Below, in pieces: positions 9,110-40,220 of a stretch of DNA of 64,000 nucleotides. The notes under the pieces were generated by a model that had not been told where the DNA came from, made no database searches, and saw nothing but the letters and a program-made list of their open reading frames with translations. Every line of letters begins with the position of its first letter. Position 1 is the stretch's first letter. The position numbers and the translations under genes are program-made. Source of the DNA: Closterium sp. NIES-65 (lineage: Eukaryota > Streptophyta > Zygnematophyceae > Desmidiales > Closteriaceae); NCBI GenBank assembly GCA_948144175.1, contig CANXME010002068.1, positions 1 through 64,000 on the forward strand, read 5' to 3'.

Positions 9110-12100
9110 ATGACCGGCGGAGTTTACGGGTCGAAAGGTTCGGGGCGGGGAGCCTCCGCGCGGCACCGGGAGCGGTTGCGGGACGACGAGAGCGGGCGGG
9201 GGAGCAGGGGGAGCCACGGCAGCCGCGGGGAGTCGAGCGGGGGAAGCAACAGCGGCGGAAACGAGTCGTCCGTGAATGGAGGGGCCACCGCGTGGGCCAT
9301 AGACTTTACAGAGGTAGGGGGAACAGGGGGGCTTAGGTGGGGGGACGGAGGAGAAGGAGGTGGGAAATGGAGGTAAATATGTGGGGGAAATGGGGGAGCA
9401 AAAGGAAGGTTTAGGTGAGAGGTAGGTTTGACAGGAAGGTGTTGAGAGGTTTGAGGCAGTGTTTCTCTCAGGTTTAGGAGGGTGAGTTAGGTTTGGGGTA
9501 TGGTGTGGACGAGAGGGTGGTCAGGAGGGAGATGCGCGGGAAACAACGGCACGGACATTGAGAGTGTCGCAGGTGTGTGTGAATGGTGGTAGTTGGTTTC
9601 CAAGAAGGCCTTAATGCTGTTTAAATCAAAGTGTGAGATTTCTTTCCTTTTCCCTTAAATTTTGCACATGGCTAAATACAGGGGTTCTGGATAGGGCTTT
9701 TGTGCGAGGGATGACGCGTGCATGCCAGGGGAATAGGGGGTGGGGGGGGAGGCAAGGAAGGGGGAATGAAGGTCGGGGAAGGAAGGCAGAGGAAATGGGG
9801 TATGGGGAATTTATAGGCCTTTTGTTCTTTGTGCTTGAAAACAGTGCTGACGATTTGTGCTGCGGTGTTGCTCCCATTTGTCCCTTGTCCCACCTGCATC
9901 CAACCACACCACCCCCATCGGCCCCCCATTACCCCTATTGACCCTTGGTGGATTTCTGCCGTTCTTCCTCCTCCTCCTTCTCCTCCTCCTCCTCCTCCTT
10001 CTCCTCCTCCTCCTCCTCCTCCTCCTCCTCCTCCTCCTCCTCCTCCTCCTCCTCCTCCTCCTCCTCCTCCTCCTCCTCCTCCTCCTCCTCCTCCTCCTCC
10101 TCCCCCCTTCCCTACCCCCGTCCACTTCCTTGTCCCATTTCATAGTCCTCAAACCCTCAGCGTTCCCCGTCCCCCCCTTTCGTCTCCCTTTCTTCCATCT
10201 CCTCCCTCTTCCAATTCCTCCCTCTTCCAATTCCTCCCTCTTCCATCTCCTCCCTCTTCCATCTCTACCCTCTTCCCTCTTCCCACTTCCCGCTCCCAGG
10301 TGGAGCTGGGCGAGCTAGTCGCCACGGGCTCTCGTTCGGCGTGGTGCACAGAGCCGTGTATCGCTTCTAGCAGCGCCACAAAAACCCTCTCATCCCACCT
10401 CTCTTCCCCCGCTCCTCCCTCCCAGGTGGAGCTGGGTGAGCTAGTCGCCACGGGCTCGTTTGGCGTGGTGCACAGAGGCGTGTATCGCGGGCAGCAAATA
10501 GCGGTCAAGTTCCTGCTCTTCCCGGAAGCTAGTAGCGAGGATGACTTGAATCGGGCCAAGAGGGGGTTCCGGCAGGAGGTGGCGGTGTGGCACAAGCTGC
10601 AGCACCCAAACGTCGTGCAGGTGCGTGCGTGTGTGCGTGTGTGTGTGCGTGGGTGTGTTTGTGCGTGCGTGCGTGGGTGTGTGCGTGTGTGGCTGGTTGG
10701 ATGAGTGGGTGGGTGGGTGGGTGCATGCGTGCGTGCATGAGTGTGTGCATTCTTGACGAGTGGCCTTTCGTCTCACCCTCCCGTCTCACCCCCCCGTCCT
10801 CCTCTTCCCGCACCTCGTCCCCGAAGGCACAGTTGCTCTCGGACCATACTTACAACGTTTTTTTGGCCCTGCTATCTCTCCCGCTCTCCCTCCCGCTCTC
10901 CCTCCCGCTCTCCCTCCCTCTCTCCCTCTTGCCCCCCCTCCCGCTCTCTCTCCCGCTCCCCCTCCCCCTCCCGCTCCCCCTCCCGCTCTCTCTCCCGCTC
11001 CCCCTCCCCCTCCCGCTCCCCCTCCCGCTCTCGCTCCCCCTCCAACTCCCTCCCAACTCTTCCGTCTCACGCCCCTGCACCCATCGCACTTCTCAACCCG
11101 CCCAAGTGAGCTCTGAGTGACAGAACTCCTCAGCAGCACCTCAATCAAAGACCTGCTGCTGCCCTGTTCTTTCTCCTTCACACCCCACCCCCATCTACCC
11201 CCTCTCCCTCCCAGTTCCTAGCGTCGTACATCAACCCGCCCATGCGGGCCATAGTCACGGACGGAGTTCCCTCCCTTCCCCTACTGCCCCACCCTTTTCT
11301 CCAATCTGCGCCATTTCCCCTACCCTGCTGTCGGGATTCCCCCTCTCCCCCCTCCCCCCCCCCCTCCCTGTGATACCAGTTCCTAGGGGCGTACATCAAC
11401 CCGCCCAAGTGGGCCATAGTGACGGAGTTTCTAGAGGGCGGCACAGTCAAGGGCTTCCCCTCCCATGCCTTCTCCTTAACGTCTCGAGCCTTCATCACCT
11501 CACCTCCCCATGCCCATCCGCCATCCCCCCCCTTCTCCCCCCCTCCAGTTCCTAGGAGCGTACATCAACCCGCCCAAGTGGGCCATAGTGACGGAGTTTC
11601 TAGAGGGCGGCACAGTCAAGGGCTTCCTGTCCCGGATAGGCAAGAACCGCCTGCCGCTCAAGCAGATCGTCTCCATGGCCCTCGATGTCGCCAGGTATGC
11701 GTCTTTGTATGCATGCAAGCCTGTGCCGTGCCTTCCCATGCCCCTCTGTGCCGTTCATGCCGCTCAAGCAGATCGTCTCCATGGCCCTCGATGTCGCCAG
11801 GTATGCTTATGGCTGCCCGTGCCTGCCCGTGCCTTCCTGTGCCTTCCCATGCCTGCCAGTGCGCGTGCATCCCATGAGAAGAAAGTTGAAAGGTCACAAA
11901 CTCATTAGATAAGGCCCATTCCTGCCCCTTTCCTGTGCGTTCCTGCCCGTTCCTGCCCCTGTCATGTGTGTTCCTGCCCGTCCCTGCCCGTTCATGCCCG
12001 TGCCTGCCCGTTCATGCCCGTGCCTGCCTGTTCCTGCCTTTGCCTGCCAGTCACTTCTTCCCTCGATTTCTCACACTGTGCCTTTTCTCTGTCTCCTTTT

Positions 12101-13522
12101 ATACCCACGCCTCCGTTCCCCGCCCCCCCTATCCCCCTGTCCATTCCACCATCAGAGGCATGCAGTACCTGCACAGCACAACCACAACGTTATTCACCGC
12201 AATCTCAAGTCGTCGAATCTGCTGCTAGCGGTCTCAAAAATTCACTAGTTCCGCCCTCAGCCCAACCTCCCCTCTTTCCCCACCTTTATTCCCTCTCTAC
12301 TCCCCGTTCTCCCCTCTCCCTCCCGCCCCCAGAGGCATGCAGTACCTGCACAGTCACAACGTGATTCACCGCGACATCAATTCATGCTCCCTTCGTCCTT
12401 ACCTCTCTCACACCGCGTCTTTTCTCTGTCCCCCCTCATAACTCGCTCCCCCAGAGGCATGCAGTACCTGCACAGTCACAACGTGATTCACTGCGACCTC
12501 AAGTCGGCGAATCTGCTGCCGTCAATCTTAAAAGCCCTCCCCCCTCCCCCCTCTTTCCCCTTTCCCCCACCTCTCCCTCCCGCCTCCTCTTCCCCTCTCC
12601 CCCCCTTCCCCTCCGCCAGGGGCATGCAGTACCTGCACAGCCACAACGTGATTCACCGCGACCTCAAGTCGGCGAATCTGCTGCTGGCAGCAGACGCGAG
12701 TGTGAAGGTGGCGGACTTTGGCCTGGCGCGCACAGAGGCACAGGAGCCGGGCAACATGACCGCTGAGACGGGCACAATCAGATGGATGGCGCCGGAGGTG
12801 GGCAGTGGGTGGGGGATCTGGCGGCGCGAGAGGTGGGTTGTGTTGTTGTGAGGTGCCCCAATAGTACCTTCGTTTTGAGTGGGGAAATGGGGAGAGCGTT
12901 TGGCTTGCCTCAGGGGCTTTTGGCTTGGGTACACAGAGGCACAGGCGCCCGTCTTGCCATGGTGATGATCATGGGGAACATGGGGAACATGGGGAACATG
13001 GGGAACATGGGGAACGTGATGATCTGTTTCCAGGAGCCTGGCTCACACATCTGGTCCCCGATTTCCCTTCCCGTTTCACCTTCAGATGAGCGACCACAAG
13101 CCGCACACGCGGAAGGTGGATGTGTACAGCTATGGCATCGTGCTGTGGGGGATGAGTATAAGACCAACACACCTGGTCGCTGATTCCTTCTTCCTGTTTC
13201 CCAACCCCTTGTGCACGTCCTCCCTGCATCAGATGATCGACCACAAGCGTACACCAGAAAGGTGGACGTGTACAGCTATGGCATCGTGCTCTGGGAGATC
13301 TGTGGGAGACTAACACTCCTGATCCCTGCTCTCCCCTTTCTCCTCCCTGCATCAGATGATCGACCACAAGCCTTACACGCGGAAGGTGGACGTGTACAGC
13401 TATGGCATTGTGCTCTGGGAGATCTGCACGGCCCAATGGCCGTTTGAAGGGCTGTCCTTTGTGCAACTCGCACACGCCATTGTCGCTGATGTGAGTAGAC
13501 CTGTTGCTGCTGTTGCTGCTGT

Positions 13523-13563
<41 letters not shown>

Positions 13564-14706
13564 TTGTTGCTCTTGCTGCTGCTTTGATAGTTGTGCTCCC
13601 CACCCCTGATGCAACTCTGGGGACATCGGACACTCTCGGGACATCGGAAAATCACCCCGGTGCGAGACATTTCAAGTAGAACTTACTTTCTATCACGAGT
13701 CACCTTTGCGCACCCACCCAGCCCAGCGCAACCCAACCCAACCCAAGCCCACCCCCCTTCTCCGCCCTCTATTCCGCATCTAACTTCCTCGTTCCCTGCT
13801 CTTCCCCCCCCCTTCCCTTGCGCCAACCACCACCACTTTGCATCGCAGGACCTACGGCCGCCCATAAAGGACTGCCCGAGCCAGCTAACAAAGCTGATAA
13901 CGCGGTGTTGGGACCGGGACCCAGATGTACGGCCAGACTTTGACGAAATTGTTAAAACTCTCCAAGGCATTGCCTCGAGTGCGTCGCTCAGATTCAGGTG
14001 CGGATGGGTGTGGTGGGATGGGGATGGTTGAGTTTAAGTGAGGTGGGGTGCGGATGGGCGGGGTGGGATGGGATGGGGTGAGTGGGACAAACCTGATTGT
14101 CACGACGCTCGAACGCATTGCCTCGAGTGCGTCGCTCAGATTCAGGTGCGGATGGGTGGGGTGGGGTGGGTTTGGGTGGGTGTGAGCGGGTTGAATGTGA
14201 TTGAGAAGGGTTCAAGGGGCTTTTCTTTTGAGGACGCTGCTCAGATTTAAGCACACGTGGTTAGGTGGGATGGTGTCAGGTGTGGTGAGTTTGCTCTCCG
14301 TTGCTCTCTCCTCTCACACACCCTTTTGTTTCTAACACCCTAACACCCTCTTGTTCTAAGCACCCTAACTCTCTCTTGTTTCTAACACCCTTTCCCTACC
14401 AGGTCGGATGGTCCAACAGTACCCATGCGGCCAGCACCCACAGGATCCGGCAGACCTAACGGCAGCTTAACTCCAGCAACAGCAGGAGGAGGAGGAGGAG
14501 GTGGAGGAGGGGGAGGAGGAGGGGGAGGAGGAGCAGGAGGGGGAGCAGGAGGAGGAGGCGGGAGGGGAGGGGATGGCAGCAGCAGTCAGGGTGTGGCGTC
14601 ACGGCACGGGCAACGGGAAGAGCAGCCAGCAGAAGGGCAGTGGACCAAGATCCAGGTGCCTGTAGCTCCTGAGAAATCCACTGGGTGCGGTTGCTCGATA
14701 CTGTGA
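9110..14706 (+). CDS. Raf-like group C (MRK1-type) protein kinase with C-terminal CaaX box, 7 exons, 436 aa
   Basis: Predicted cytosolic or membrane-attached Ser/Thr (possibly dual-specificity) kinase. Exons: 9110-9313, 10426-10620, 11549-11694, 12620-12797, 13356-13490, 13849-13997, 14403-14706. All introns are GT-AG with consistent phases. Residues 1-60 are Gly/Ser/Arg-rich, then AWAIDF leads into the kinase domain (about 69-332). Landmarks: glycine loop ATGSFG (76-81), Lys96 in [13 protein letters not shown] (194-203), DFG (214-216), MAPE (238-241), [12 protein letters not shown] and [19 protein letters not shown] and the MTAETGT activation segment resemble Arabidopsis MRK1-type Raf-like kinases. 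A Gly-rich tail (about 355-395) ends in CSIL, a geranylgeranylation-type CaaX box. The start is the ATG that opens the acidic/Arg-rich N-terminus in frame with exon 1. Family call is secure; exact subgroup and substrate are not. Confidence 0.88.
9957..10105 (+). repeat. (TCC)n microsatellite in kinase intron 1
   Basis: About 150 bp of nearly pure TCC/CCT triplets inside intron 1 (9314-10425). Its translations (poly-Ser, poly-Pro, poly-Leu, and poly-Arg on the reverse strand) are spurious. Confidence 0.97.
10300..10378 (+). pseudogene. Ghost copy of kinase exon 2 start
   Basis: Preceded by a CTCCCAG acceptor, this repeats the first ~75 bases of exon 2 ([10 protein letters not shown] and onward) but drifts out of frame and stops resembling the exon near TATCGCTTC. 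It lies 48 bp upstream of the true exon 2, whose own acceptor is identical. Confidence 0.85.
10621..11050 (+). repeat. Simple repeats in kinase intron 2
   Basis: Intron 2 opens with a degenerate TG-rich tract (GTGCGTGCG variants, to about 10745). It then carries a CTCCCTCCCG/CCCGCTCCCC array (about 10875-11050). Neither has coding potential. Confidence 0.9.
11215..11457 (+). pseudogene. Two ghost copies of kinase exon 3 start
   Basis: Copies at 11215-11270 and 11380-11457, each with an acceptor AG, repeat the exon 3 start encoding [21 protein letters not shown]. The first is diverged ([13 protein letters not shown]) and shifts frame. The second matches up to KGFP and then loses similarity. 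The true exon 3 begins at 11549. Confidence 0.88.
11758..11800 (+). pseudogene. Ghost copy of kinase exon 3 end
   Basis: Repeats the last ~43 bases of exon 3 ([12 protein letters not shown]) with its donor GTATGC, 64 bp downstream of the true donor at 11694. It carries no acceptor and so cannot be an exon by itself. Confidence 0.88.
12156..12520 (+). pseudogene. Three ghost copies of kinase exon 4 start (catalytic loop)
   Basis: Copies at 12156-12240, 12333-12380 and 12455-12520 each follow an acceptor AG and repeat the exon 4 start ([21 protein letters not shown]). They differ by substitutions: the copy beginning 12455 reads HCDLKS, and the copy beginning 12333 breaks off at RDI. The true exon 4 starts at 12620 and alone continues through DFG and APE. 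Confidence 0.9.
12969..13020 (+). repeat. 9-bp tandem repeat in kinase intron 4
   Basis: Five units of CATGGGGAA in intron 4. No gene content. Confidence 0.9.
13086..13310 (+). pseudogene. Two ghost copies of kinase exon 5
   Basis: Copies at 13086-13153 and 13233-13310, each after a CAG acceptor, repeat the exon 5 start ([20 protein letters not shown]). The first stays in frame for about 20 codons and the second shifts frame early. The true exon 5 begins at 13356 and is the only copy that continues to QLAHAIVAD. Confidence 0.88.
13500..13585 (+). repeat. TTGCTG-type repeat in kinase intron 5
   Basis: Tandem GTTGCTGCT/GTTGTT units directly after the exon 5 donor. Simple sequence only. Confidence 0.85.
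14113..14160 (+). pseudogene. Ghost copy of kinase exon 6 end
   Basis: Repeats the last ~33 bases of exon 6 (GCATTGCCTCGAGTGCGTCG) with the donor GTGCGGATGGG, 116 bp after the true donor at 13997. A shorter trace sits near 14231. Confidence 0.87.
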
Positions 14707-16571
14707 GGCGATGCAGATTGTTTGGGGGGGAAGCGGGTGAGGTTGAATGAGGGGGTGGGGTGGGGGCAAAGAGGGGGGACATGATCAGGGCGGGTATTGA
14801 TGGATGGAGGGAAGGAAGGAGGAAGGGAAGGGAGGAAAGGAGGAAGGGAAGGGAGGGAAGGAGGAAGGGAAGGGAGGAAAGGGCAGGAAGAAGCCTTCCA
14901 TTAGGGTAGTGGTGAGGCCATTGCAGCAGCAGCAGCAGCAGCATTAGCAGCAGCATTAGCAGGAGAAGAAGTTGCAGGTGCAGCGATGGCGGAGGGATGG
15001 CTGCTCTCACTCAAGACAGGATATAACCTGCTGTGCAGTGCAGGGCAGCCACATCTGCCAACGGTGCACCATGCAACCACAATAAAACCCCTTCTCAACC
15101 ATAAAACCCTGAACCCCTTTTACATCCTCCTTTCATTGTCCGGTCGCACCTACATCCCCACATCCTCACACCCTCACATGCCCAGATCCTCAGACTCACT
15201 CCCTCACTTCCTCACATCCGCACAACCCTACGTCCTCACATCTTCCCGCTATTTGCCCTACCCTCTCGGCAGACACCTATTCTTTCGTATTACAGTCTCA
15301 GCATCCCACCCTACCCAGCCCACACTGCACCACCACACTCCACCACTCCCGACCACCGTCTTTCTTCCACGGACCCCCTTTTCCAGCTCCACTCCAGCCC
15401 ACATCCTCCTCACCGCTTTCATCCGCTTTCCTTGCAGAATCCATCCCCCTTCTCCTCCTCCATTTTAAAATACCCCCTGCTGCTCTTCCTGGGAAGACGA
15501 AGGGCAATCGCCAATCATACCCTCTTGCTCTGAAGTGGGTTGCAATCGCATGCATGGCCTGGTCACAGGAAGAAGCACTTTGGCGACGTTGGAGGCGCCT
15601 CAAAACCTGCAACACCTTTTGGCGATAGGAAGGAGGAGGAGCACCGTGATTTGGAGAGGACGGAACGGATCATGGATGGGAAAGCGCAGGAAGATAGAAT
15701 GGTGAAAGGAAGAAGGGTTGTAGTTTTGGGTATGTACCAGTATGGTGTTGTGTGGTGTTGAGGCTGTTCTACAGTATATCCTAGCAAAGGACTGTTTTAC
15801 TGGTCTGGTGCACAAGACCTGCTGGAATGCAGAAACTACCGTATATTGCTTTCTGAGCACCCTACCTCTCATGTGCTTGCAGGCATGTGTGCTTCTGACA
15901 GCTATAAGTAAATAAAATGTTACATGTGTTGCGTTTGCAGGTGAAGGCTTGTAGGGTAGTGCAGAGAAGCCTAAGGGAAAGTGCATAGAGGAGTTGGAGT
16001 TTCTAATTTGGTGGTCACCAGTGTAATAATTGCAATTGTGAAAGTCTACTTAGGCTGACTTGCATGTTGGGCTGAAAAGGCTCTAAGGATCTTTACAGAG
16101 GATAACTCTGGGTAGGATACTTTGTAATAGCGGAAGCGTTTAATGAAGCTTTGTGAACCGACCTTGCACTAGTGTGTGAGAGCAAAGTAGATTAAATTAT
16201 ATTGAAAGGATACAAGCTTATATAATAATACAGGGAATATGAAGAGATACGGTTATAACTACTTTTACTGTTGCTGTTGCGGTTCGATACAGTGCGACTC
16301 GGGCAACTGCTCTGTAATGAGTCAGTTGTGTGTCCTTAACTGTCGCGCTGTTCTTGTCAGGTCAAGGGTCAGCGACCTTTGACTTTCGCGTAACTTCCTG
16401 CAGCCGATTCAACCTCCGAGGGTTGACTCGCAGGTGCTTCGGTGTAGGTTGCCTCGCTTCTGGTGCAATGTTTTGACACTGCTGAAGCGTTTAAGTTCCA
16501 TTGTTTCCAACATTGCAAAGGCAGCGTTATCATTTCATATGGGTTGTAGTACATCGTTCTCGTCTTATATA
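14707..16571. other. 3' flank of the kinase gene, no gene recognised
   Basis: Holds GGAAGG-type repeats (about 14800-14890), a GCA tract (14923-14945) and mixed sequence. An open frame at 15540-15761 has no recognisable domain and lies where a long 3' UTR or a second transcript could be. Nothing can be called. Confidence 0.5.
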
Positions 16572-17942
16572 CCGTCATACCCCGGATATACCCCCATGGG
16601 GGGCAATAATAAAACAGGTTTTTTTAGGGGGGTGCGCTTAAAATCGAGTAAATTTATAAGCGCCGGCGTATATAAAATGACATATATATTTTTTGCTGTT
16701 TTTCAACACCAAACTGTAGATCTCGTGCTTGCCTTTTCAATCGAGTCGAAGTGCGCCATCTAATACGCTCTACAGTGCCTTCGATTCCTTTCTCAGCAGC
16801 ATAAATCCAATCCCCCATGGGGTCGTCTGTAAAATTCTCGCGCGCGCTTGGAGATACACTCAATCTGACTCACATCCAGCTCCTGACAGCCCTGCTGACT
16901 GGACCCGCATCGAGTGCAGGGTCCGAATGTGAAGGGAACCAAATCTGCAACACGCCCGCCTGCTAAAGTAAAATTCATTACAGCGTTTTAAGCACATTTC
17001 AAAATTTAAAGTTAACGTGTGCTTATAATAAAACAGGTTTTTTCAGGGGGTGCGCTTATAATCGAATAGCGGATATAAGCGCCACACGCCAGGGCTCTTG
17101 CTAGGATTTAGGCCTGTCTGAAGTCCCCCCCCCCAAAAAATCGTTTTGTCTAACGTTCAGACGGGCAAAAAAAAAAAGCCTGATTTTTCAGACGAAAGTT
17201 GGAGCTTAGTCTGATTCATAAGACAAATGTTTTCCATGGTCTGTTTGCTGTATTACACTAGTCAGCCATGAAAACGGTATGATTCAGTCTTTACAAAGTA
17301 CGAAATGAATGCGCGACGTTGACAACCCGCTAGCAGACAATCATAGCAAGTTGGGCGCCTAGGGGGACTTGGGGGGGGGAGGGGGAATTTGGGCTGCGAG
17401 GGACATGCATGGGTGGGTCCGTGTCTTACGCGACGGACCAGGGGGGTGGAGGGACTTGAGGGGAAGGGGGCTGGGCTGGGAAAGGTGTAGGGGAGCTAGG
17501 CGGGGGAAGGGGGGATGGACTGGGGTTGCGCAGCGAGAGGCTGGGCTGGTGGAGGGGTGACTTGGTGGTGAGGTTGGGTTAGGAGAAGCGCGTGAGGGAC
17601 GGGACTTAGGGCAGGGGGGACTGAGGGGAAGGGGGGGGGTGGGAGGGGGAGGGGGCAGGCCAGTACGGTACTTTCTCGGTATCAGATGAAATTGTACGCG
17701 CTTTCTGATTTTTCAGACGGAATATAACACTTAGTCATTTTTTTCAGACGAAATAAAATCATTCGTCTTGTGGTTCAGATGAAAAAAAAACTATGGTCTG
17801 GAAGATCATATGAAACAAAGAAATCAGGTCTGATTTTCAGACCATCAGACCGATTTGGTCTGATAACCAGAGCCCTGCCACACGCCAATTAAAAGCGCCA
17901 GGCGCTTATCCGAGGGTGGCGCTTATATCCGGGGTATGACGG
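16572..17942. mobile_element. Non-autonomous pogo-type DNA element, carrying a nested insertion
   Basis: Terminal inverted repeats beginning CCGTCATACCCCGGATATA, flanked by TA (16570-16571 and 17943-17944), match the ends of the full pogo-like element at 25658. The interior repeats the subterminal words ATAAGCGCC and GGCGCTTAT and the tract AAAACAGGTTTTTT, and has no transposase. Without the nested hAT-like insertion and its target duplication the core is about 575 bp. It is probably moved in trans by the pogo-like transposase. Confidence 0.85.
17090..17877. mobile_element. Non-autonomous hAT-like element nested in the pogo-type element
   Basis: 788 bp. Ends are CAGGGCTCT and AGAGCCCTG, as is typical of hAT elements. 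It is flanked by an exact 8-bp duplication CCACACGC (17082-17089 and 17878-17885). It has subterminal TTTTCAGACGAAA-like repeats near both ends and a G-rich centre, but no transposase. The hAT call rests on the end sequence and the 8-bp target site duplication. Confidence 0.85.
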
Positions 17943-18020
17943 TATGTCTACATAACAGCAAACACCAATGGGTGGGCGGGTGGGAAATTAGAACTACAAT
18001 TTCAGAAATGAAAACGTGGC

Positions 18021-18086
18021 TGGGGACGAATGTCCCCACGTCCCTCTTTTGTAGGCAAAAGAGGGTGAGTAGCGCTTCGGCGCTAC
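18021..18086. other. Cluster of three perfect hairpins
   Basis: Three stem-loops stand side by side. TGGGGAC/GTCCCCA has loop GAAT (18021-18038). CCCTCTTTTG/CAAAAGAGGG has loop TAGG (18042-18065). GTAGCGC/GCGCTAC has loop TTCG (18069-18086), i.e. a C(UUCG)G-type tetraloop. No gene adjoins them. The style recalls palindromes of algal organelle intergenic DNA, but origin is unproven. Confidence 0.8.
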
Positions 18087-18289
18087 CTTTGCTGTGTTGG
18101 CAACGTACACCTTTTCACAATACAAAATCTTAGAAAGTGTTACATTTCATTATACTTGAAAAAATTATCATTTCAGCTAACCTTGTACGAACCATTCTTA
18201 CCGGTACATCACCAATGTACCAAATAGCTAGAACACAAAGCATAGCTAGAAGGTCTTACGGTATTACCAAATAAATGCTTGCACGTAAG

Positions 18290-18421
18290 TGTCAAAGTAT
18301 ATGTAAATGTTAGAATGATATGTAGGCTGTAGTGGGGTAGCCAATGTAGGGTATAGGTTTTGTTACTTGTACCCAACTCTCTCGATGGTCAACACACCTT
18401 TCCTTCCCTTTACTCTCGACA
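18290..18421 (+). repeat. 5' LTR of copia 2
   Basis: TG...CA ends, 132 bp, preceded by GTAAG and followed by the primer binding site. Confidence 0.93.
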
Positions 18422-21400
18422 TGGTATTAAGAGCAAAATAGGTTCTTAGGACCGTTTTAGGACTGTTTTTTTGGGCCCACCAACCGCTTCCGCCGGTTAC
18501 CGCGTTAACCCGTCCCCTGCCTACACCGCCCTGAGTCGCGCAGCCCTCGCGCTCGCCTCTGCTGGCCCGGGCGCAGCTCGCTAGCAGCCCGCCCGCTGCC
18601 TCGTCAGCCCTGCGCGTCGCTCGTCCGCTGCCTCGTCAGCCCCGCGCGCCGCCCTGCAGCCCTCGCGCTGCCATCTGCTGCCCCGCACGCCGCCCCGCAG
18701 CCCTCGCGCTGCCTTTACTGACCCGCGAGCCGCCCGCGCAGCCAGCCTGCTGCCTCGTCAGCCCCATGCGACGCCCGCGCAGCCCGCCCGCTGCCTCATC
18801 AGCCCCGCGCGCGGCCCGCGCAGCCCGCCTGCTACCTCGTCAGCCCCGCGCGCTGCCCTCCCAGTGCCTTAGCATCCCTCGTGCTGTCTCTACTGCTCCG
18901 CGCGCACCACTCTTCCGCCATTGCTGCTCCTCCCCTGTCTCTGCAGCTTCGCGCACCGCCCCTGCCGCCCACACGCAGCCTTTGTCGTCCGCGTGCTGCC
19001 TCTACTGTCGTGCTGCAGTGACCATGACTTCTATTAGCGTACTGTCGTTCGACCCTGAGGGTCGCCCGGTCGAGTTCGATGCCTGGCTCGAAGATCTTCA
19101 GCTGTATCTTATGACTGATGCCAAGGACAGCGTCTCGCTCTTTGACTTAGCTAAGGTTCCTCAGACGCTCCAGACACAGCTGACAGCGTCGCTCATTCAC
19201 AGTGGCTTACCCGTGACGCTACTGCACGCCTATCTATTCGCAACCACTTGCCTCTAGCCGAGCGCACCCACTTTGGCCAGCACAAAACCGCTAAAGCACT
19301 GTACGTTGCTGTCATCGCTCGCTACTCTTCTCCTGCCACTACTGCCCTCAGCCGCCTTATCCTACCCTACCTTTTTCCTGAGCTCTCCTCCTTTGCCACA
19401 GCTGAGGACCTTATCACTCATCTCCGCGCTAGTGACGCTTGTTACCGCGCTGCCCTCCCGGTCGAGTTCTTAGACAAGAACCCTCCCCCGATGTACATCA
19501 GACTCTACTTCATCGTCACCCGACTCCCTGACTCTCTTCGTGTCGTCAGGGACCACTTTCTAGCCCTTCCCCCCACCGACCTCACCGTCGACGACCTCGA
19601 GAAGCACCTGCTTGCAACTGAGTCCAACATAGTAGCTGTCGGTGCTGCTCGTGGCACTCCCCGCACTCCTTGCCCCCTCCCCCTTTGCCCCTCTCACGCC
19701 TCTGCTGCTACTGTTGACTTCCTTGGTGCTGAGGAGGTCGGTGCCGCTTCTACTTCTACTGGGAAGCGCCGCAGTGGCAAGGGCAAGGGGGGCAAGGGTG
19801 GCTGCGCTGGCAGCGGAGGAGGTGGTGGTGGAGGAGGTGGCGGTGGGGGTGGTGGTGGTGGTGGTGGTGGTGGCGGGGGTGGAGGGGTAGGTGGCAGCAG
19901 TGGTAGCAGCGGTGCGCGTGGTGGTGGTGGAGGAGGCGGGGGTGGGAGCGGTAGCAGTGGCGGCGGCAGCGGCGGCGGTGATGGCGGTAGGAGCGGTGGT
20001 ACCAGCGGTGGTACCAGCGGTGGTAGCCAGCGCCAGCAGCAGCAGCGTCAGCCCGAGCCCCGCACGCCCCAGCAACTTCGTGAGTGGTGCGCTCGGCGTG
20101 GGGAATCTGGGGGTGGTGGTCGCTGCCCTTACCGCATTCGCACTGGTGAATGCGCTGGTCAGACGTGCAACAAGTTTCACACCGAGTACCGCTGCTTCTT
20201 TAGGCTTGACGACGCCTGGCGTGCCCAGTTTCCTTATGCTATTGAGCTTCCCTACTGGGCAGACCTACTTAAGCGTGATGTTCCTATCTTTGATCTTGAC
20301 TATGATACAATTCTTGCTGCCATGTATGCATTGACTGTTAGTGCTGAGGGTGATTGCTACTTGTGTATGCCGCCTGACCCATGTATAGAGACTTCAGCCC
20401 TAGGTGCTAGTGAGTCTGCTCTCTCTGGTACTGCGTCGGCTCAGGCCTTGCACATCTTTACACTTGACTCTGGTGCTTCCCGCTATTTCTTTTGCGACAG
20501 TACCACAGTCACTCCCCTCCCTGCACCTGTCCCTGTCTCACTGGCCGACCCCTCTGGGGGCCCAGTACTTGCACGGTTCACTACTGTGCTTCCGTGTCCG
20601 GCGGTCCCGTCAGGTGAGCTGACAGGTCTCCACCTCCCCTCGTTCTCTACGAACATGGTGAGCACCGCCGTCCTTCAGGATCATTGGGTTGACACCTTTA
20701 CTCATGGAGGACAGCGTGTGGCGATCAGCACATGCTCTCGGACAAGCCGTCACCTGGCCACGTTCACACGTGCGCCTGGATCCAGTCTGTACACCCTCAC
20801 CACTGCGTTGCGCTACGCCCCTTTGTCTCCTCAGCTGTACGCGTCCGCTCAGGTAGCTACCCAGTGTGAGTGTCGCCGCCTGTCGCACCAGACTCTCCTG
20901 TGGCACCACCGCCTTGGTCACCCCTCCCTGCCACGCCTCCGTGGCATGCACTCCCGCCTCCTGGTCTCTGGTCTTCCCAGGTCTCTGCCCTCCCTCCCTC
21001 CCTCGCCTGCGCCGCCCTGCATTACTTGCGTCGAGGGGCAACAGCGCGCCGCTCCTCACTCCTCCTCGTTCCCTCCGACAGAGGCTCCACTGCAGACTCT
21101 CCACCTGGACGTGTGGGGCCCAGCCCGCGTCCGTGGACAGGGCCACGAGCGGTACTTCCTGCTGGTAGTCGACGACTACACGAGTTACACCACGGTCTTC
21201 CCCTTGCAACGCAAGGGGGATGTCCCTTCTATTTTGATCCCTTGGATCCGCACTGTTCGTCTCCAGCTCCGCGAGCGGTTCGAGTCGGACTTTCTTGTCC
21301 TGTGTCTGCACTCTGACAGAGGTGGTGAGTTCACCTCTGACCTCTTGCGAGCCTACTGTGAGGAGCACGGCATCCGCCAGACGTTCACGCTTCCGGCCTC

Positions 21401-24378
21401 TTCGTAGCAGAGTGGGATTGCTGAGCGCCGCATTGGCTTAGTCATGGAGGTCGCTCGTACCTCCATGATCCATGCGGCTGCCCCCCATTTTCAGTGGCCA
21501 TTTGCGCTCCGGTACACCGCGCATCTGCTCAACCTCTGGCCCCGTGTCTCCGTTCCGGAGACTTCGCCCACACTACGCTGGACGGGGGAGGTTGGCGATG
21601 CATCGCGATTCTGGGTCTGGGGTGCTTGTGCCTTTGTCCACGATACCACTGCGGACAAGCTCTCCCCTTGCGCCATTCCCTGCGTCTTCCTTGGTTTTCC
21701 CCCTGACGCGCCTGACTGGCAGTTTTACGACCCCGCCTCGCGCCGTGTCTTAGCGTCTCAGGACGTCACCTTTGACGAGTCGGTCCTCTTTTACCGTCTT
21801 TTTCCCTACCGCACTGCCCCCCTCCCCCCCCCCCCCCCCGTCGCTCTTTCTCGCTCCAGGTCCTCCCCAGGTAGATCCCCTCCCCGCTCCAAGTCCTGCT
21901 CCTTCAGGTGTGTCTCAGGTAGACCCTCCTCCCTTGTCTAAGCCGGTTGAGGTCACTGGTGACTCAAGTACTGCTGGGGGTGGTCCTGCTCGGGGTGCTG
22001 CTTTTGGGGGTGCTGAGTCAGGGGGTGCGGAGCCTGGGGGTGCACAGCCTGAGGGTGCGGAGCGTAGAGGTACTGAGCCTGAGCGTGAGGAGCGTGGGGG
22101 TGCTGAGCCTGAGGGTGCGGAGCCTGGAGGTGCTGAGCCTGGGCGTGAGGAGTCTGGGGGTGCTGAGCCTGGGGGTACTGAGTCTGGGGGTGCTGCGCCA
22201 GGGGGCACTGAGGCGTCTGGTAAGCAGTCTCCTTGGAGTGGCCGTCTCCGTAGTCGCTCCGCTGGTGCCTCGCCGCAACACTCTCGTCGGCGTCTCCCTC
22301 TCTCCCCACAGCAGCTGTGTGAGTGGTACGTTAGCCGTCAGGGTCGCGCTGCTGGAGTTGGGGGCCCTGCTGCGGGAGGCGCTGGCGTTGGAGGCAATGG
22401 AGCTAGTGACTCTGCTAGTGGAGGTGTTTCTACTGGAGTTACTGGACCCGCTGGTCCCGGAGGTGCTCGTACTGGAGGTACTGGAGCTGCTGTGGCTAGA
22501 GGTACTTCTGGACCTGGAGGTGCTGCTGTTGGAGACACTGAGGCTGGAGACCCTGGGGCTGGAGGTGCCGATTCTGGGGGTGCTGCTGCTGGTGGTGCTG
22601 GTACTGGAGGTGCTGGTACTGGAGGTGCTGGCGCTGGAGGTTCTGGAGCTGTTGGAGGTGCTGGCGCTGGTGGCGCTGGAGCTGGAGGTTCTGGAGCTGC
22701 TGGAGGTGCTAGTACTGGAGATGCTGGCGTTGGAGGTTCTAGAGCTGCTTGGGGTGCTGGCGCAGGAGGTTCTGGAGCTGCACGAGGTGTTGGAGCTACT
22801 GGTGCTGGTGGCACTGCACAGCCGCGACTGTTCTTCGCTCCGCCGTTACATTCGTCTCTCCCGTCGCCTGACTCCGTGCTTCGCCAGGTTCTTAGCATCC
22901 CGTCTTCTACTGGTCTTCCGTTACAGCCTGGCTCACCGCTGCCTACTCCTTCTCCTTAAACTGAGCAGACAGGAGGTCTTGTTGAGCGTCGTGCACCTGC
23001 GTCTCGTCCTGTCTCGCCTGTTTGCACTGTACACACTAGTCGTACTGGTCGTCGTGTTCCTCCTGAGCGTCCGCCGGCTGTCCCAGGCACACACCTCATG
23101 GCCCTGCGTCCTTCCTCTGCTCCGCATCGTGTTCCTCTGCTGTCCCCTCCTGCGTCTTCTCTGCCTAACATTCAAGACCCTGAGTCTGACCGCGCTCGTG
23201 CTGCTCACCCTACTGTCACGCGTCTGCTTGCCATTGTTGTCACTGACCCTTCGTTTGAGTCCACTGCTGCGTCTTCTTTAGCTGCTGGGCTTGTTGACAT
23301 TGCTGCTGCCTGTCGTCTAGACTACGATGCTAGTCTTGTTGCTGAGTCTGAGTCTGTCTGTCCTCCGTCCGTCGGGGGTGAGTGTGCTCTTGGCACGGAC
23401 GTCCTTGAGGACGGACAGGAGGACTTTGAGTGTCTTGCAGCCGCTGCGCCTCATCTCGTGGCCATGTTGCTTGCCCCTGAGGGAGACCCGGATGCACCAG
23501 ACATCCCGACCCTGCGCGCTTACGCTGAGGCGATCGCGGATGAGTACTCCTCTAAGTGGCAGACAGCCATGGACGCAGAGATGGCATCCTGGAAGTCCAC
23601 AGGCACTTACGTCGATGAGGTTCCTCCTCCTGGGACGAACATCGTCGATGGCATGTGGATTTTCAGGGTGAAGCGACCGCCGGGTTCTCCTCCTGTCTTC
23701 AAGGCTCGTTACGTTGCTTGAGGCTTCAGTCGGCGAGAGGGAGCTGACTTCTTCTAGACCTTCTCCTCCACCCCGAAGATGACCACTCTTTGGGTACTGC
23801 TGCACATTGCTGCTCAGCGTGACTACGAGCTTCACTCTCTGGACTTCAGCACAGCCTTCTTACAGGGCAGTCTGCACGAGGAGATCTGGCTGCGCCGCCC
23901 ACCTGGCTTCACTGGGTCGTTCCCTCTTGGTACTCAGTGGAGCCTCCGCCGGCCAGTGTACGGTCTCCGTTAGGCGCCTCGAGAGTGGCACGAGACACTG
24001 AGGACGACACTTGCGGCTCTTGGGTTTGCCCCTTCCACTGCTGACCCGTCGTTGTTTGTGCGCACCGACACTTCCTTGCCGCCGTTCTACATCCTCGTGT
24101 ACGTCGACGACTTGGTCTTTGCCACTGCTGATACTGAGGCTCTCGCCGTGGTGAAGTTGGAGCTGCAGAAGAGACACACGTGCACAAAACTGGGTGAACT
24201 GCGCAGTTATCTTGGCTTGCAAATCACCCGGGACAGAGCACGGCGCACCATCACACTAACTCAGTCACACATGGTGCAGCAGGTCCTTCAACGCTTCGCC
24301 TTCACCTGGTCCTCGCCATAGTCCACTCCTCTGGCTACAGGTCACTCGCTCTCAGCTCCACCTTCGGACGAGTCCGTA

Positions 24379-24521
24379 GTGTCTGAATCCCAACCACTAG
24401 ACCATTGGGATAAAAGAGCTTGTTTGTGTAGTGGGTGAGTGCGTCCATAACCCCCCAGACCAACATGCCTGTAACCCTTCCCTAGAATCAATCGGGGATC
24501 ACTAGTGGACCTCTAACATGT
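24379..24521. mobile_element. Short dispersed repeat (possible tRNA-derived SINE) inserted in copia 2
   Basis: About 145 bp interrupts the copia sequence and starts GTGTCTGAATCCCAACCA. The same family occurs at 28876-29030. On the reverse strand its end reads GGTCTTGTGGTTGGGATTC, which loosely resembles the B-box/T-arm region of a tRNA, and AGCTCTTTTATCCCA could be an anticodon arm. The tRNA origin is tentative; the repeat itself is clear. Confidence 0.6.
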
Positions 24522-25436
24522 AGAGCCGAGTGGTCCGTACTCAGAGCTAGTGGGCTGCCTCATGTACCTGATGACCTGCACTCGACCTGACCTTGCGTAC
24601 TCTCTTGGCATTCTCGCTCGCTACGTGGCTCCTAGTAGGCACCGAAAGGTGCACACGGATGCTGCTAAGAGGGTACTACGTTACTTGTGCAGTACATCGG
24701 GCATGGGGCTCGTGCTTGGAGGGCGGAGCCCAGTTGTCCTTACTGGGCACTCAGACGCTTCTTGGTTGACGACCTAGCTACGCAGCAGTCGTCACAGGGT
24801 TACACCTTCAGCCTTGGCTCTGGCTTTGTTTCGTGGCGGTCTACACGCTCGTCTTCTGTTCTCAGCTCCAGTTGTGAGGCTGAGATCTACGCCACTGCCA
24901 TGGTTGCACAGGAGCTACGTTGGCTCACCTACCTGCTGACCGACTTGGGAGAGCGGCCTCGTTCTCCTCCAGTTCTGTATGTAGACAACAAGGCCGCCAT
25001 TTCCTTGTGTCAGGTGCACAGACTGGAGCACAGAACGAAGCACATCGCTCTGCGTTACTTCCTGGCTCAAGAGTTGCAGCAGCGTGGTCAGCTTCGTGTT
25101 GCTCACGGGGCCACTCGGGCCAACACTGCTGATATATTCACCGAGGCACTTTCGTCTGGTGATCATCAGCGCTTTTGTACTATGTTAGGCATTGTGCCTA
25201 CGTTTTCTCGCTGTAGACTTTGCTTGTGATGCGATCTACATATATATACCTACATGCTTTTCGTTGCTAGGTAGCGATCACTGGACTGCTGTTGTTGTAT
25301 ATATACATCAGCATGTGAACTGGCCTTATGTTTGGTGTGTGTGGTGACGTTGTGATCCACCCCGAGCTTGCTTTGCTTTTCTTGACAGGTCTTGTGACCT
25401 GACCCCTTGTTCTCCCCCACTTTGCCTATGGGGGTA

Positions 25437-25568
25437 TGTCAAACTAGATGTATATGTTATAATGATATGTAGGCTGTAGTGGGATAGCCAATGTAGGGTA
25501 TAGGGTTTGTTACTTGTACGCAACTCTCTCGATAGTCAACACACCTTTCCTTCCCTTTACTCTCGACA
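25437..25568 (+). repeat. 3' LTR of copia 2
   Basis: Begins after the purine tract ATGGGGGTA and is followed by the second GTAAG duplication. Confidence 0.93.
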
Positions 25569-25657
25569 GTAAGCCACATTACACAGCTTGATCAGACATT
25601 CTCATCGCATGATACACTGCGCAGCACCGTACAGTTCCACTCAACTGAGATAAGGTA

Positions 25658-28600
25658 CCGTCACCCCCCGGATATAAGCGCCACCCTAGGATAAGCGCCT
25701 GGCGCTTCTAATTGGCATATGGCGCTTATATCCCCTCCTCGATTATAAGCGCATACCCTAGAGTCGTACGGATTATAGCCGCATACCTGTACCTTACACA
25801 TTATAACTGCCACTTTAAAAAAAAAAAAAAATTCTACACGCTTCACTAACCACATTAACATTGTATATTTTCATCTAATTAATTACAAAGTCAATTTGTC
25901 TAAAGTTTTTTCTAATTACAGTTCTAAATCTACCTACGAGTCTCACAGGCTACAACAATTTCTAGATCTACGTAATCTAGTCATCAGCTGCGGTAGGATC
26001 ATCCGGGTCGGCCTCAGAGTCCGACTCTGGTTCTTCTACGTTGTTGCAGAAAAAGCCATCTGCTGCAATGTCGTCGTCGATGTCTATTTCGTCGCCCTCA
26101 AGCTCGTCGCGCCTGTGTTGCAGGCACATCTTGTCCTGGGACCCATCCAGGGCGTTACTAATGCCACAGGTGAGGAAAGCCCGTTGAATCAAGTCCCTGG
26201 GCACGGCCTTCCAAGCCGCTGATATCCACTTGAGCGTTAGCTCGGGTGGTGGCTTCTTGATGTTGCCTGCCATAAAATTTAAACAATCAAAAGTCAGCCA
26301 CCGCTACAAACTGTTAAAGCAGCACACGCATGGCCTGCCTCTCTCACCTTTCTTTGTCAAGGTGTCGACCCCCTCGCTCTCGAACCACTCCTGGTAGAGC
26401 TGGCGAACGGATGCCTTGAAGGAGCGATTCACCGCGACGTCCAGAGGTTGAATCTCCGAGGTGCAGCCAGCTGGGATAACGGCAGGGACGATGTTCAGCT
26501 CCCCGAACTTCTTCTTCACCTCCGCAGTCAGGTGCCCGCGGTACGAATCCAAGACGAGCATCGCTTTGCGGGGCCTCACTCCGAACTTGGGGTGGACGAA
26601 CGGCTTCACTGCCCCGTCGAGCCACTCGATGACTCCGTCCGCGTCCATCCAACCGTTGGGATGGACGGACACCGTAACATCTGCACAGCCATAAACGCAC
26701 GTACAACATCAGTAGACATAGAAAAAAAAAAAAACATGCAGCAGTGGGTGTTAATGCTCACCTGAAGGGAAATCCCCTTTAGGCAGGGTCTTCCGTTTGA
26801 AGAAGACCCACGGCTTCAGCTTCTCACCGCTGGCAGTGCAGGCGAGCATCACCGTAACTCGCTCCTTCTGATAGCCGCCGCTGCGGATAGGCACAGAGCG
26901 CAGACCCACCTCCTCGACTGTGCGTTCGGCAGGCATCTCGAGCCACAGTGGTGTCTGGTCCGCGTTTATTATCCACTGCGGGTCAATCTTGTATTGGCGG
27001 CGGGTGTGACGCACGAACTTCCAGAAATTCCTGACGTCAGTCTCGCAGTCTGGGAGTACGGGTGGGAGGGAAAGAGAGAAGAGAGTATTAATGACGCGTT
27101 AAAATTCAACCGTGAAACATAAAGAGACAAACAACACAAAGCAGTACACATTAAACTGCAACCATTTCCCACAAAACTCACTGGCAGCAAGCTTCTGGCC
27201 GACCCTGGTCTTCGCTCGGGTTGTCAGATTCCAACGGCGGCGAAACCGCTCAGTCCACCGCTGCGAGCCGGACCACTTTACCTGTGGGTGCAATTCTTTC
27301 ATCACCTCATGCGACCACTTCTGTAGGCGAGCAATCGAGACCGCGAGACATTTTTTACGGTGGGCAAGAAACCTCCTGTAGACTTCAGCTTCCATGTCGC
27401 GATACCACGAGCTCCTTCCGCGCCCATGAAGACGCTTGCGAGCAGCATGCGCGCCCTCCAGGTCAGCCTTCCGGGTCTTCCATTCTGCGAGTGACCTTCG
27501 GGAGATGCCGGTTTGGCGAGACATCTGCCGCACGCTCATGTGCCCGGACTCAAGCTTGAGAATCCACTGCAGTTTCTCCTGCGATGTGTAAGAGTGCCGC
27601 TTGTGACTTGAAGGCTTGTGCCTGGGGGAGGGAGGACGGGCATCGCGATTCTCGCGAGAAGGGTGGGGCCGTTTCTTATTGGGGGGGGGGAAGGTGGGAA
27701 TAGGCAGGTGCTCTGGAAGACCGTCGGCAGCCCAAAACTCCACGTCATCCTCCGCACCAGTCGCGGATTCGTCCAACGGGCAATCAGCCGGGGCTCCCCA
27801 GCGTGGCGACGGTGCGGAGGAAGACGATGCGCCACCGGCGCGGTCGGGCTCGGACAGGTACGCGTCAAACGCCGAGTAGCCAGGAGGGAGGAGAAGCTGC
27901 AGGACCCCCTGACGTGGAGCACAAAACACAGGCGGGTCAGGAGGGGACGGAGGAGCTGGAGGAACCGGAGGCGCCGGGGGAGCGGGAGGTGCAGGAGGAG
28001 TTGGGGGAGTGGGAGGAACGGGAGGAGCTACTGGTTGACACGGAGGGACGGGCGCAGGGCGCGACTGCCATTGAGAGTAGTCACAGGTGTCTCGGCGGGT
28101 GTTTTCTCTGGCAGCAGGATGGCGGCGGAACAAGAAATGCGTGCCTGGAAGGCCCGCCATGGCCACGGCAGGCCAAACGAACAAAGAAACTGAAGGCAAA
28201 AGTCGAGAATGAGGGCTGTATGAAGCCCTCGCCCGAGACCCCTTCATTTTCGCGGCCCGGCCTCCTCTGCGGGAAAAGGGTGGCCCCAGTCAAGATTCCC
28301 CGCAGAGGAGCTGAGCTGGGCAGCTCCTTGCCTCGGTGGCGGGGAATTTTGCTGTTGATGGGCACACCGTGGCTGAACCACGACGTGCCCACGATCGCAT
28401 GCAACCCTGATTGGGCCGCTGTGATGCGAGGTACGTGTGCACTGGCATGGGCCAGGTTCACGTTCGATGAACCTGGCCTGGCCAACAAGGCGTGGAAGGC
28501 GTGAAGCCACGCCTTGTTGGCTGTTTCACACGCAATGCATGCACAGTTTCGAACGTTCTCGACCCAGGTGAATCCGCGTTTGAGAATGCTTCGATTTGGT

Positions 28601-28735
28601 ATATTAAAAAACAAATTTCAATTTTGACAAATTATAAACGCCGGCGCTTATAAATTTACTATATTATAAGCCCACCCCCTCAAAAAAACATGTTATATTA
28701 TAGCCCCCCATGGGGGTATATCCGGGGGGTGACGG
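25658..28735 (-). mobile_element. Pogo-like (Tc1/mariner superfamily) DNA transposon, looks intact
   Basis: Terminal inverted repeats CCGTCACCCCCCGGATATA at both ends, flanked by TA (25656-25657 and 28736-28737), 3078 bp. Subterminal regions repeat GATATAAGCGCC and GGCGCTTATA, which are likely transposase-binding words. The single gene inside is a spliced transposase read on the minus strand with no break seen, so this could be an autonomous, recently active copy. Confidence 0.92.
25977..28247 (-). CDS. Pogo-like DDE transposase, 4 exons, 658 aa
   Basis: Exons on the minus strand: 28247-27182, 27049-26762, 26680-26348, 26266-25977. GT-AG introns and phases are consistent and give one open frame of 659 codons. 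Order: a Pro-rich N-terminus (poly-PPAPP, about 65-100), a helix-turn-helix DNA-binding region (SQEKLQWILKLESGHMSVRQ and RQTGISRRSLAEWK), a second CENP-B-like region, then the DDE catalytic core. Catalytic acidic residues are visible in NADQTPLW, VLDSYRGH and EIQPLDVAVNRSFK (a DDD triad). The C-terminus is acidic. It would bind the element's ends and cut and paste it at TA sites. The start is the first ATG of exon 1; a later start cannot be excluded. Confidence 0.88.
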
Positions 28736-28875
28736 TATGAGGTGAAGATTGAGACACAAAGATATGGAATGGAAGTGCCCTAAGTTACCATCCACCACCA
28801 CATGTCGGCCTTTTATCGAGAACAAAGCCCATGCATACAAAAGCCATAGGGTGTGGCTACCGTACATGTTCGTGT

Positions 28876-29030
28876 CAGAATCCCAACCACAAGACCATTG
28901 GGATAAAAGAGCTTGTTTCAGTAGCGGGTCAGTGCGCCCCTAACCCCCCAGGCGAACGCGCCTGTAACCCTCTACAGGATCAATCGGGAATCCACAGTGC
29001 AGATCTAGTGACAGTTCGGGTCCCAGTCCT
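28876..29030. mobile_element. Second copy of the short dispersed repeat
   Basis: Starts GTGTCAGAATCCCAACCA and follows the copy at 24379 through ATTGGGATAAAAGAGCTTG, TAACCCCCCAG and GATCAATCGGG. It lies between the pogo-like transposon and the 3' end of the DDM1 homologue. Possible SINE; ends are approximate. Confidence 0.6.
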
Positions 29031-29210
29031 GCCAATCTAACCCAGCACCACACCAACCCAGCAAAGTTCCCACTACCGGTAAATCTGAAATGATCCTTGA
29101 CCCTCGTCACGTGCAGCTTCACCTGCTCTAATCTAAATCAACCGAAACCAATCCGTCCGTTCCGTACCGCATGAATTCCTCCAAACCGTGCTCCTCCAGG
29201 GGTGAAAGGA

Positions 29211-40220
<11,010 letters not shown>

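Follow-up and report, generated by a model that had tools for sequence, protein, structure and literature searches.

Ghost exons in the introns of a kinase gene and a DDM1-like gene of Closterium sp. NIES-65, and their possible origin by out-of-register exchange

Introns may change in great numbers within a single lineage, as with introners, which are self-copying elements that make introns. A comparable mass change is described here from a 64-kb stretch of the genome of the zygnematophyte green alga Closterium sp. NIES-65 (G000:C1770:1-64000, hereafter the window), where a protein-kinase gene and a DDM1-like SNF2 gene carry ghosts, that is, decayed partial copies of the start or the end of an exon inside the adjoining intron. 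Unlike introners, these copies derive from the adjoining exon: a transposon or an introner would appear as the same element at unrelated sites, and each copy in the window matches its own neighbouring exon. The presence of the ghosts is confirmed; the explanation that we prefer, with a probability of roughly 0.5, is that they are non-functional partial exon copies that arose by local duplication across exon-intron borders, in many cases probably through out-of-register exchange between diverged homologous gene copies.

In the potato RdRp gene, a short tandem duplication across the intron-1/exon-2 border has left an upstream copy of the intron end and the exon start (PMC4974935). The ghosts resemble it as border-crossing tandem copies with inherited splicing signals; however, the potato case is one event that made a new intron, whereas the Closterium copies sit inside existing introns and accompany 36/86 exon hits at 18 further SNF2-type loci, and the pattern of their silent sites suggests a different lineage. 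Pseudogenic exons, found in 0.4-1.0% of mammalian genes (PMC2718932), are likewise disabled exon copies within genes with a similar pattern of decay, but in Closterium many exons of most genes sampled are involved, and the copies are partial edges anchored at splice sites. The Exonize survey covers 20 eukaryotes and lists exon matches that are partial or intronic (PMC12343006); these, too, are exon-intron matches within the same gene, though the available part of that paper does not mention anchoring at edges, a fixed spacing or an excess of silent differences. The Closterium species complex itself hybridises, and in NIES-4550 polymerase chain reaction (PCR) confirmed that sequences of different origin had recombined (PMC10407611). 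That study shares with ours the species complex, a lineage mosaic and, on its side, PCR-confirmed borders; it treats recombination in NIES-4550 at gene and contig scale and uses the term intron five times, and no mention of exon copies in introns was found in its available part. Judged by titles and the openings of abstracts, with most subscription journals outside the scope, exon-edge copies at such density or with such a silent-site signature were not found in the literature.

The genome searched is an assembly of 874,075,685 bp in 2400 contigs; the published NIES-65 assembly amounts to 876 Mb and is based on 110 Gb of PacBio data, processed with Canu, Arrow, 10x scaffolding and Pilon (PMC10407611). 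Both gene models were built by hand, with GT..AG at every intron and no internal stop, and the parent exons retain full frames without any new intron. The nearest proteins to the DDM1-like product are those of Closterium.

9110..14706, + strand, protein-kinase gene of seven exons (9110-9313, 10426-10620, 11549-11694, 12620-12797, 13356-13490, 13849-13997 and 14403-14706), with an intact spliced frame, a 436-aa product and a Pfam kinase domain
29211..40220, - strand, DDM1-like SNF2 gene of 17 exons (first 40220-39975, last 29534-29211), with an intact 850-aa product and Pfam SNF2/Helicase_C domains

All 24 exons were compared with the 64-kb window by blastn (E<=1e-3), excluding low-complexity matches (kinase exons 1 and 7; DDM1 exons 2 and 17), an 18-nt palindrome within DDM1 exon 13 and one 27-nt cross-match of exon 16 to intron 11. 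A total of 28 extra copies were obtained, where a first inspection of the letters alone (the sequence-only reading) had counted about 25, and they belong to exactly the exons it had listed, namely kinase exons 2-6 and DDM1 exons 2, 5, 7, 9, 11, 12, 13, 15, 16 and 17. All 28 lie on the same strand as the gene and in the adjoining intron. The arrangement that it had described, with acceptor-side copies upstream and donor-side copies downstream of the parent, was also recovered, with 21 of 28 being exon starts and seven being exon ends. The ghosts are given below, the fused exon 15/16 ghost counting as two of the 28, and are followed by weak candidates and intron-only copies.

10300..10364, + strand, start of kinase exon 2 (bases 1-63, +2 nt), blastn
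11215..11261, + strand, start of kinase exon 3 (1-47), blastn
11380..11464, + strand, start of kinase exon 3 (1-85), blastn
11758..11800, + strand, end of kinase exon 3 (104-146), 100% identical, blastn
12156..12229, + strand, start of kinase exon 4, frameshifted (+5), blastn
12333..12383, + strand, start of kinase exon 4, blastn
12455..12519, + strand, start of kinase exon 4, HRD changed to HCD, blastn
13086..13153, + strand, start of kinase exon 5, blastn
13233..13302, + strand, start of kinase exon 5, frameshifted (-1), blastn
14096..14145, + strand, end of kinase exon 6, blastn
38994..39033, - strand, end of DDM1 exon 2, 100% identical, blastn
36790..36821, - strand, end of DDM1 exon 5, 100% identical, the next 12 nt of intron also 100%, blastn
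35636..35662, - strand, start of DDM1 exon 7, ghost 1, blastn
35446..35537, - strand, start of DDM1 exon 7 (1-92), ghost 2, blastn
35386..35412, - strand, start of DDM1 exon 7, ghost 3, blastn
34974..35053, - strand, end of DDM1 exon 7 (97-176), 97.5% identical, blastn
34393..34433, - strand, start of DDM1 exon 9, blastn; appears with the preceding intron in a deposited NIES-65 protein
33460..33526, - strand, start of DDM1 exon 11, blastn
32737..32791, - strand, start of DDM1 exon 12, AG lost, blastn
32025..32083, - strand, start of DDM1 exon 13, blastn
31121..31155, - strand, start of DDM1 exon 15, blastn
30756..30851, - strand, fused ghost of DDM1 exon 15 end (30851-30798), GTA, and exon 16 start from base 4 (30794-30756), with no intron between
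30446..30511, - strand, end of DDM1 exon 16, five differences, all silent
30047..30100, - strand, start of DDM1 exon 17, ghost 1, AG lost, blastn
29894..29961, - strand, start of DDM1 exon 17, ghost 2, blastn
29757..29824, - strand, start of DDM1 exon 17, ghost 3, blastn; with the following intron, 46/49 residues occur in a Naga37s-1 protein
29608..29678, - strand, start of DDM1 exon 17, ghost 4, with a stop codon, in a tandem array of 144-bp units, blastn
11093..11124, + strand, weak candidate for an older copy of the start of kinase exon 3 (84%, 32 nt)
12919..12949, + strand, weak candidate for the inner part of kinase exon 4, without splice site (84%, 32 nt)
30097..30323, - strand, intron-only local duplications 30097-30157/30201-30261 and 30133-30172/30284-30323

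The intron-only duplications indicate that the duplication process is not confined to exon borders. The exon parts of the ghosts range from 27 to 92 nt and are 86-100% identical to the parent. The spacing, put at about 50-500 bp by the sequence-only reading, is local but tighter, with the distance to the next copy ranging from 101 to 277 bp (median 143.5) and 26 of 28 distances falling within 101-177 bp. By our own reading of the borders, splice dinucleotides are retained in 25 of the 28, as had been said of most copies (AG 18/21, with the AG of the fused ghost scored as lost; GT 7/7). Copies free of indels also number 25; the indels are in the kinase ghosts at 10300, 12156 and 13233, the stop is in the DDM1 ghost at 29678, and the HRD to HCD change is in the kinase ghost at 12455. 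A count against control segments gave local same-strand copies for 15/22 exon segments, 8/70 ghost-free intron tiles and 5/250 intergenic segments, with opposite-strand copies totalling 0, 0 and 5, respectively. The ghost-free tiles were adopted after random intron segments had yielded copies in 81/150, many of these segments containing ghosts. Low complexity as the sole cause of the copies was ruled out by the intergenic and opposite-strand controls.

Whole-unit tandem self-alignments were observed at the DDM1 exon 17 array, in which a 144-bp unit is present 3.7 times, at the DDM1 exon 16 end and at kinase exons 3, 4 and 5. At DDM1 exon 7, a self-match shifted by 240 bp aligns ghosts 1 and 2 to ghost 3 and the exon. 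This suggests that these ghosts may stem from a second-order duplication. A 38-bp repeat array separates DDM1 exon 5 from its end ghost (36790..36821). Several ghosts carry intron sequence, from 7 nt up to a whole unit. The intron flank of the ghost's own parent ranks first of 22 for 14 of 28 ghosts, so the ghost flanks are related to the parent flanks as a group, and the flank scores better than shuffled sequence in 10 of 28. The intron halves of the ghosts are less alike to the parent than the exon halves. Given the age of the exon half, the flank falls below expectation in 20 of 28 ghosts when indels are set at 0.3 of substitutions and in 6 of 28 when indels equal substitutions. The end ghost of DDM1 exon 7, for instance, has 80 nt of exon 97.5% alike, and its intron match stops after 7 nt; no parent-intron match was seen beyond these 7 nt, or beyond 12 nt at the exon 5 end ghost. 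Ghost ends that fall precisely on the splice site were considered as proof of mRNA origin, an argument that was dropped since copies carry intron. The fused ghost (30851-30756) reads GTA at its join, where the mRNA has TGC. It was considered as an ancestral uninterrupted exon, with intron gain at DDM1 intron 15, and this was rejected, as the intron ends are, by our own reading, unlike the exon sequence of an AGGT model; an origin by chance deletion between short CGGGTGC repeats is no less likely.

A dispersed palindrome, approximately CTTTTGAGTCGACTCAAAAG, was noticed at window positions 30184, 30265, 36842, 36880 and 36918, and also at six of the SNF2-type loci (L009, L010, L016, L018, L020 and L029). 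Its core, GAGTCGACTC, occurs in 16 exact copies in about 198 kb, those in the window being within DDM1 introns and at times directly beside a ghost junction, while a 10-bp palindrome, GAGAATTCTC, has 40 occurrences in the SNF2 loci of the same roughly 198 kb.

The ghosts, ascribed at the outset to two host genes, proved to be more widespread, being present at SNF2-type loci and in some chaperonin genes. Twenty SNF2-type loci of the genome were sampled, near-identical locus pairs included; outside the window the exons are hits of a profile hidden Markov model rather than complete gene models, and the two members of a locus pair, which are not independent, count twice in some totals. With low complexity masked, 210 local direct repeats and no inverted ones were found, with 18 of the 20 loci containing them, and repeated ranges of a profile from 20 DDM1-type proteins adjoin exons of other SNF2 genes. 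At 12 loci, 81 exon-piece copies lie within 700 nt of exon hits, all 81 in sense orientation, with 33 upstream containing an exon start, 28 downstream containing an exon end, 16 inner and four contrary. For the 36 of 86 exon hits with a copy, the nearest copy lies at a median of 156.5 nt; the fraction becomes 36/74 if L024, L027 and L030 (0 of 3, 8 and 1) are left out as repeat-free or non-algal-looking, and as leaving them out favours our reading, 36/86 is retained. No copies were found by the exon-hit test at L024, L027, L030, L032 and L034 among these 18 loci. In the unrelated chaperonin family PF00118, repeated query ranges were located beside exons in contigs C43/C1794, C1626/C1647 and C1052/C1420 (6 of the 22 contigs listed).

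Among the sampled loci, L027 (G000:C1673) and L030/L031 look non-algal, with little low-complexity sequence in L027 and an absence of ghosts, and the assembly may hold contaminant contigs. Of L022, L023 and L024, two copies are about 90% alike and the third about 75% alike, with L024 lacking any local repeats.

Ghosts were also recovered from deposited protein models, with P0001, P0003, P0004, P0124 and P0125 of Closterium containing translated ghosts and introns. The NIES-65 protein P0004 holds a translated piece of window intron 8 and the exon 9 ghost with 64/64 residues identical. By our own reading, the DDM1 model of Naga37s-1 includes a ghost of the exon 16 end together with two of exon 17, and that of NIES-53 contains an exon 6 end ghost, an exon 14 end ghost and three exon 15 start ghosts, the first two having no counterpart in the window; a kinase paralogue of Naga37s-1 has two exon 3 start ghosts, and a ghost of an exon 2 start is present in NIES-54. 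The number of ghosts varies between gene copies and between strains. Near-identical duplicate loci agree in their ghosts, but could be duplicate contigs, and the orthologous ghosts of such pairs show 0 changes in four pairs, and are hence uninformative.

The differences between ghosts and parents are largely silent. The amino-acid share expected is 0.72 for random mutation in silico, and about 0.58 by arithmetic for a neutral ghost and a constrained parent with equal clocks. The observed differences are amino-acid changes in 42/103 cases in the window and in 203/571 at the 12 loci (368 silent, 203 amino-acid). In a pooled set of 111 copies, which overlaps with both, 438 silent and 260 amino-acid differences were counted. 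Close parent-ghost pairs have 51 silent and 32 amino-acid differences (share 0.39, 37 pairs; binomial P 0.0003), and distant pairs have 387 and 228 (share 0.37, 74 pairs; P 1e-25), these binomial figures being a guide only, as ghosts of one exon share ancestry and their changes are partly non-independent. Between ghosts, pairs within 6% show four silent and 16 amino-acid differences (10 pairs only; chance 0.035 against 0.58), and pairs above 6% show 274 and 240 (56 pairs). Close ghosts thus seem to evolve neutrally, as pseudogenic exons do, and the ghosts seem not to be under selection now; selection on ghosts, as expected of alternatively spliced or mutually exclusive exons, is not supported by the same pairs. 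The silent excess between parent and ghost, taken with the neutral close ghost pairs, suggests that much of the ghost-parent divergence arose while both lines were coding, so that ghost and parent seem to have had partly separate coding histories.

The locus pair L009/L010, which holds an SNF2-family gene that looks ISWI-like, provides a closer view. Upstream of the exon, L010 carries a single ghost (ghostA), while L009 carries ghostA and a second one, ghostB. When the loci are aligned in register, they differ by 4/332 before ghostA, 1/98 in ghostA and 1/82 in the next spacer, and ghostB of L009 differs from the L010 exon start by 1/98. The second spacer of L009, counted from the inner end of ghostB, differs from the first by 14/77 and from that of L010 by 13/77, each with five further gaps, and the repeated exon start in L009 shows only 2/98 differences. 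The extra ghost of L009 therefore ends at a jump from about 1% to about 17% divergence. Had it been copied within the chromosome after the split from L010, the second spacer should be as alike as the exon part, and it is far more diverged. The L009 exon that follows (3765-4166) differs from L010 by 14/402, of which 11 are silent (11/94 silent sites). Beyond it come 0/33 differences in the spacer and 3/110 in the first half of ghost 1, then 16/111, nearly all silent, in its second half, then 17/105, 70/225 and 7/42 in non-coding pieces and 9/219 in the next exon; from the second half of ghost 1 onward, the non-coding and ghost pieces are 14-31% divergent. L009/L010 is thus a fine mosaic, with two divergence jumps falling at or inside ghosts. 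The copies of this pair differ among themselves in third-position states, and seven downstream ghosts differ from their parents by 15/2, 18/1, 18/3, 13/3, 11/1, 10/2 and 9/2 silent/amino-acid changes. In L009 exon 8022-8339, 7/77 silent sites differ from L010, against 14/488 in the two flanks (Fisher P 0.016). A second pair, L034/L035, is separated by 13 changes over 3.6 kb, after which the differences number 2-21 per 100 across 1.1 kb holding two local copies.

Out-of-register exchange between diverged gene copies could account for these patterns as follows. Genomes of different origin meet and recombine, as others have demonstrated for this species complex. Exons would then pair as islands of homology, which drifted introns would not, and exchange tracts would end near exon edges, as the silent excess in L009 exon 8022-8339 faintly hints. 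As L009/L010 suggests, ends may at times be joined 100-200 bp out of register, by unequal crossover or by conversion with an illegitimately joined end, rather than by a plain copy of the locus's own neighbouring exon, placing a ghost of one lineage beside an exon of the other. Ghost and parent would then encode nearly the same protein, with different silent sites and a different intron. Tandem duplication or unequal exchange would finally multiply the ghosts, as in the exon 17 array, and neutral decay would follow; ghosts do stand in tandem arrays, and close ghosts differ neutrally. The partners may be other members of the species complex.

Several observations weigh against this explanation. 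The case for a ghost's birth comes from one locus pair, where ghostB may have been lost in L010 rather than gained in L009, and the diverged tract beside ghostB is short, as the 0/33 and 3/110 after the exon indicate. Other L009/L010 ghosts have no silent excess (among them 3/3, 3/3, 4/4, 2/3, 0/3, 2/4 and 1/4), and part of the excess would be imitated if silent changes accumulated faster in working exons. For the last ghost of the exon 17 array, the likeness of the intron half is that expected from simple tandem copying. Low-complexity tracts make the divergence of introns difficult to measure, and the local repeats of L034 also occur in its little-diverged part. A genome search found no donor for the DDM1 exon 7 stretch (one full match and three partial ones of 58-70 nt) or for the L009 exon, which matches two contigs only, so partners must be sought in other strains.

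That the ghosts arose by plain local tandem duplication across the border, through replication slippage or unequal exchange between sister chromatids, with neutral decay leaving the exon half alone recognisable, is rather unlikely in our estimation, though much of the evidence is compatible with it. The sequence-only reading had proposed repeated local tandem duplication followed by decay, and the tandem geometry, the full-unit self-matches including the 144-bp exon 17 array, the own-parent flank being best of 22 in 14/28, the suggested second-order duplication at exon 7, the neutral close ghost pairs and the existence of intron-only duplications all agree with that proposal. It fits poorly with the silent excess between ghost and parent, with the extra L009 ghost at a divergence jump and with intron halves too diverged in 20/28 at moderate indel rates, though in only 6/28 at high rates. 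An improbable alternative is that ordinary ghosts and exons are repeatedly overwritten by homologous coding sequence, through repair templated by mRNA or complementary DNA or through short homology-bound conversion, while introns drift. L009 exon 8022-8339, the alternation of near-identity and silent change across the spacer and the halves of L009/L010 ghost 1, and the spliced look of the fused ghost would suit such overwriting, but copies that include intron, the GTA of the fused ghost, the diverged spacer preceding L009 exon 3765-4166, which means that the tract was not exon-limited, and the lack of a donor copy in the genome would not.

An assembly artefact, in which the assembler strung together pieces of other haplotypes, had been named as the main alternative and is now very improbable. 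Ghosts do resemble edges of another allele joined out of register, and the assembly was built from noisy long reads (PMC10407611). However, the cells were in the haploid phase according to the same paper, and ghosts carry frameshifts, a stop and lost kinase residues, and their close pairs decay neutrally. The Naga37s-1 protein has the same exon 17 ghost with its intron, NIES-53 and NIES-54, sequenced with short reads and nanopore, show ghosts in their gene models, and the near-identical duplicate loci agree, with the reservation on duplicate contigs given above. We give equally little credence to functional ghosts, kept by selection as alternative exon edges or splicing decoys. Their retained AG or GT and freedom from indels (25/28 each), the many silent differences and the annotated models that splice ghosts in would be expected of such elements; the unconstrained close ghost pairs, the variable ghost number between gene copies and strains, and the frameshifts and stop would not, and by our own reading no internal splice sites that could swap ghost for parent were seen in L009.

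Around and between the two genes, seven of eight frames tested have retroelement domains, presumably of the Ty1/copia and Ty3 types. A further gene lies beyond a retroelement from DDM1:

57385-55740, - strand, small gene in four exon pieces (tblastn), with a match to the N-terminal region of P0002, for which Pfam PF01588 is listed

In Yama58-4, a single deposited model fuses this small gene with DDM1, which suggests that they adjoin each other in that strain as well. The small gene (55.7-57.4 kb) showed no ghosts, as had been noted for the small gene at 55734.

Arguments about intron growth, and about what limits recombination between diverged genomes, usually draw on isolated, rare events, whereas a small sample of one genome provides here 111 copies that have a direction, a spacing and, in many cases, a lineage tag. 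Provided that ghosts mark the borders of exchange, they would document earlier hybridisation, and exon-bound recombination could be tested on them directly. We tentatively suggest, at somewhat less than even odds, that in a hybridising complex with divergent introns recombination may be largely confined to exons and fail in register at their edges, each failure leaving a ghost. Should this be true, Closterium introns would preserve, as fossils, the silent-site haplotypes of partner lineages, and intron length would be built in part by hybridisation.

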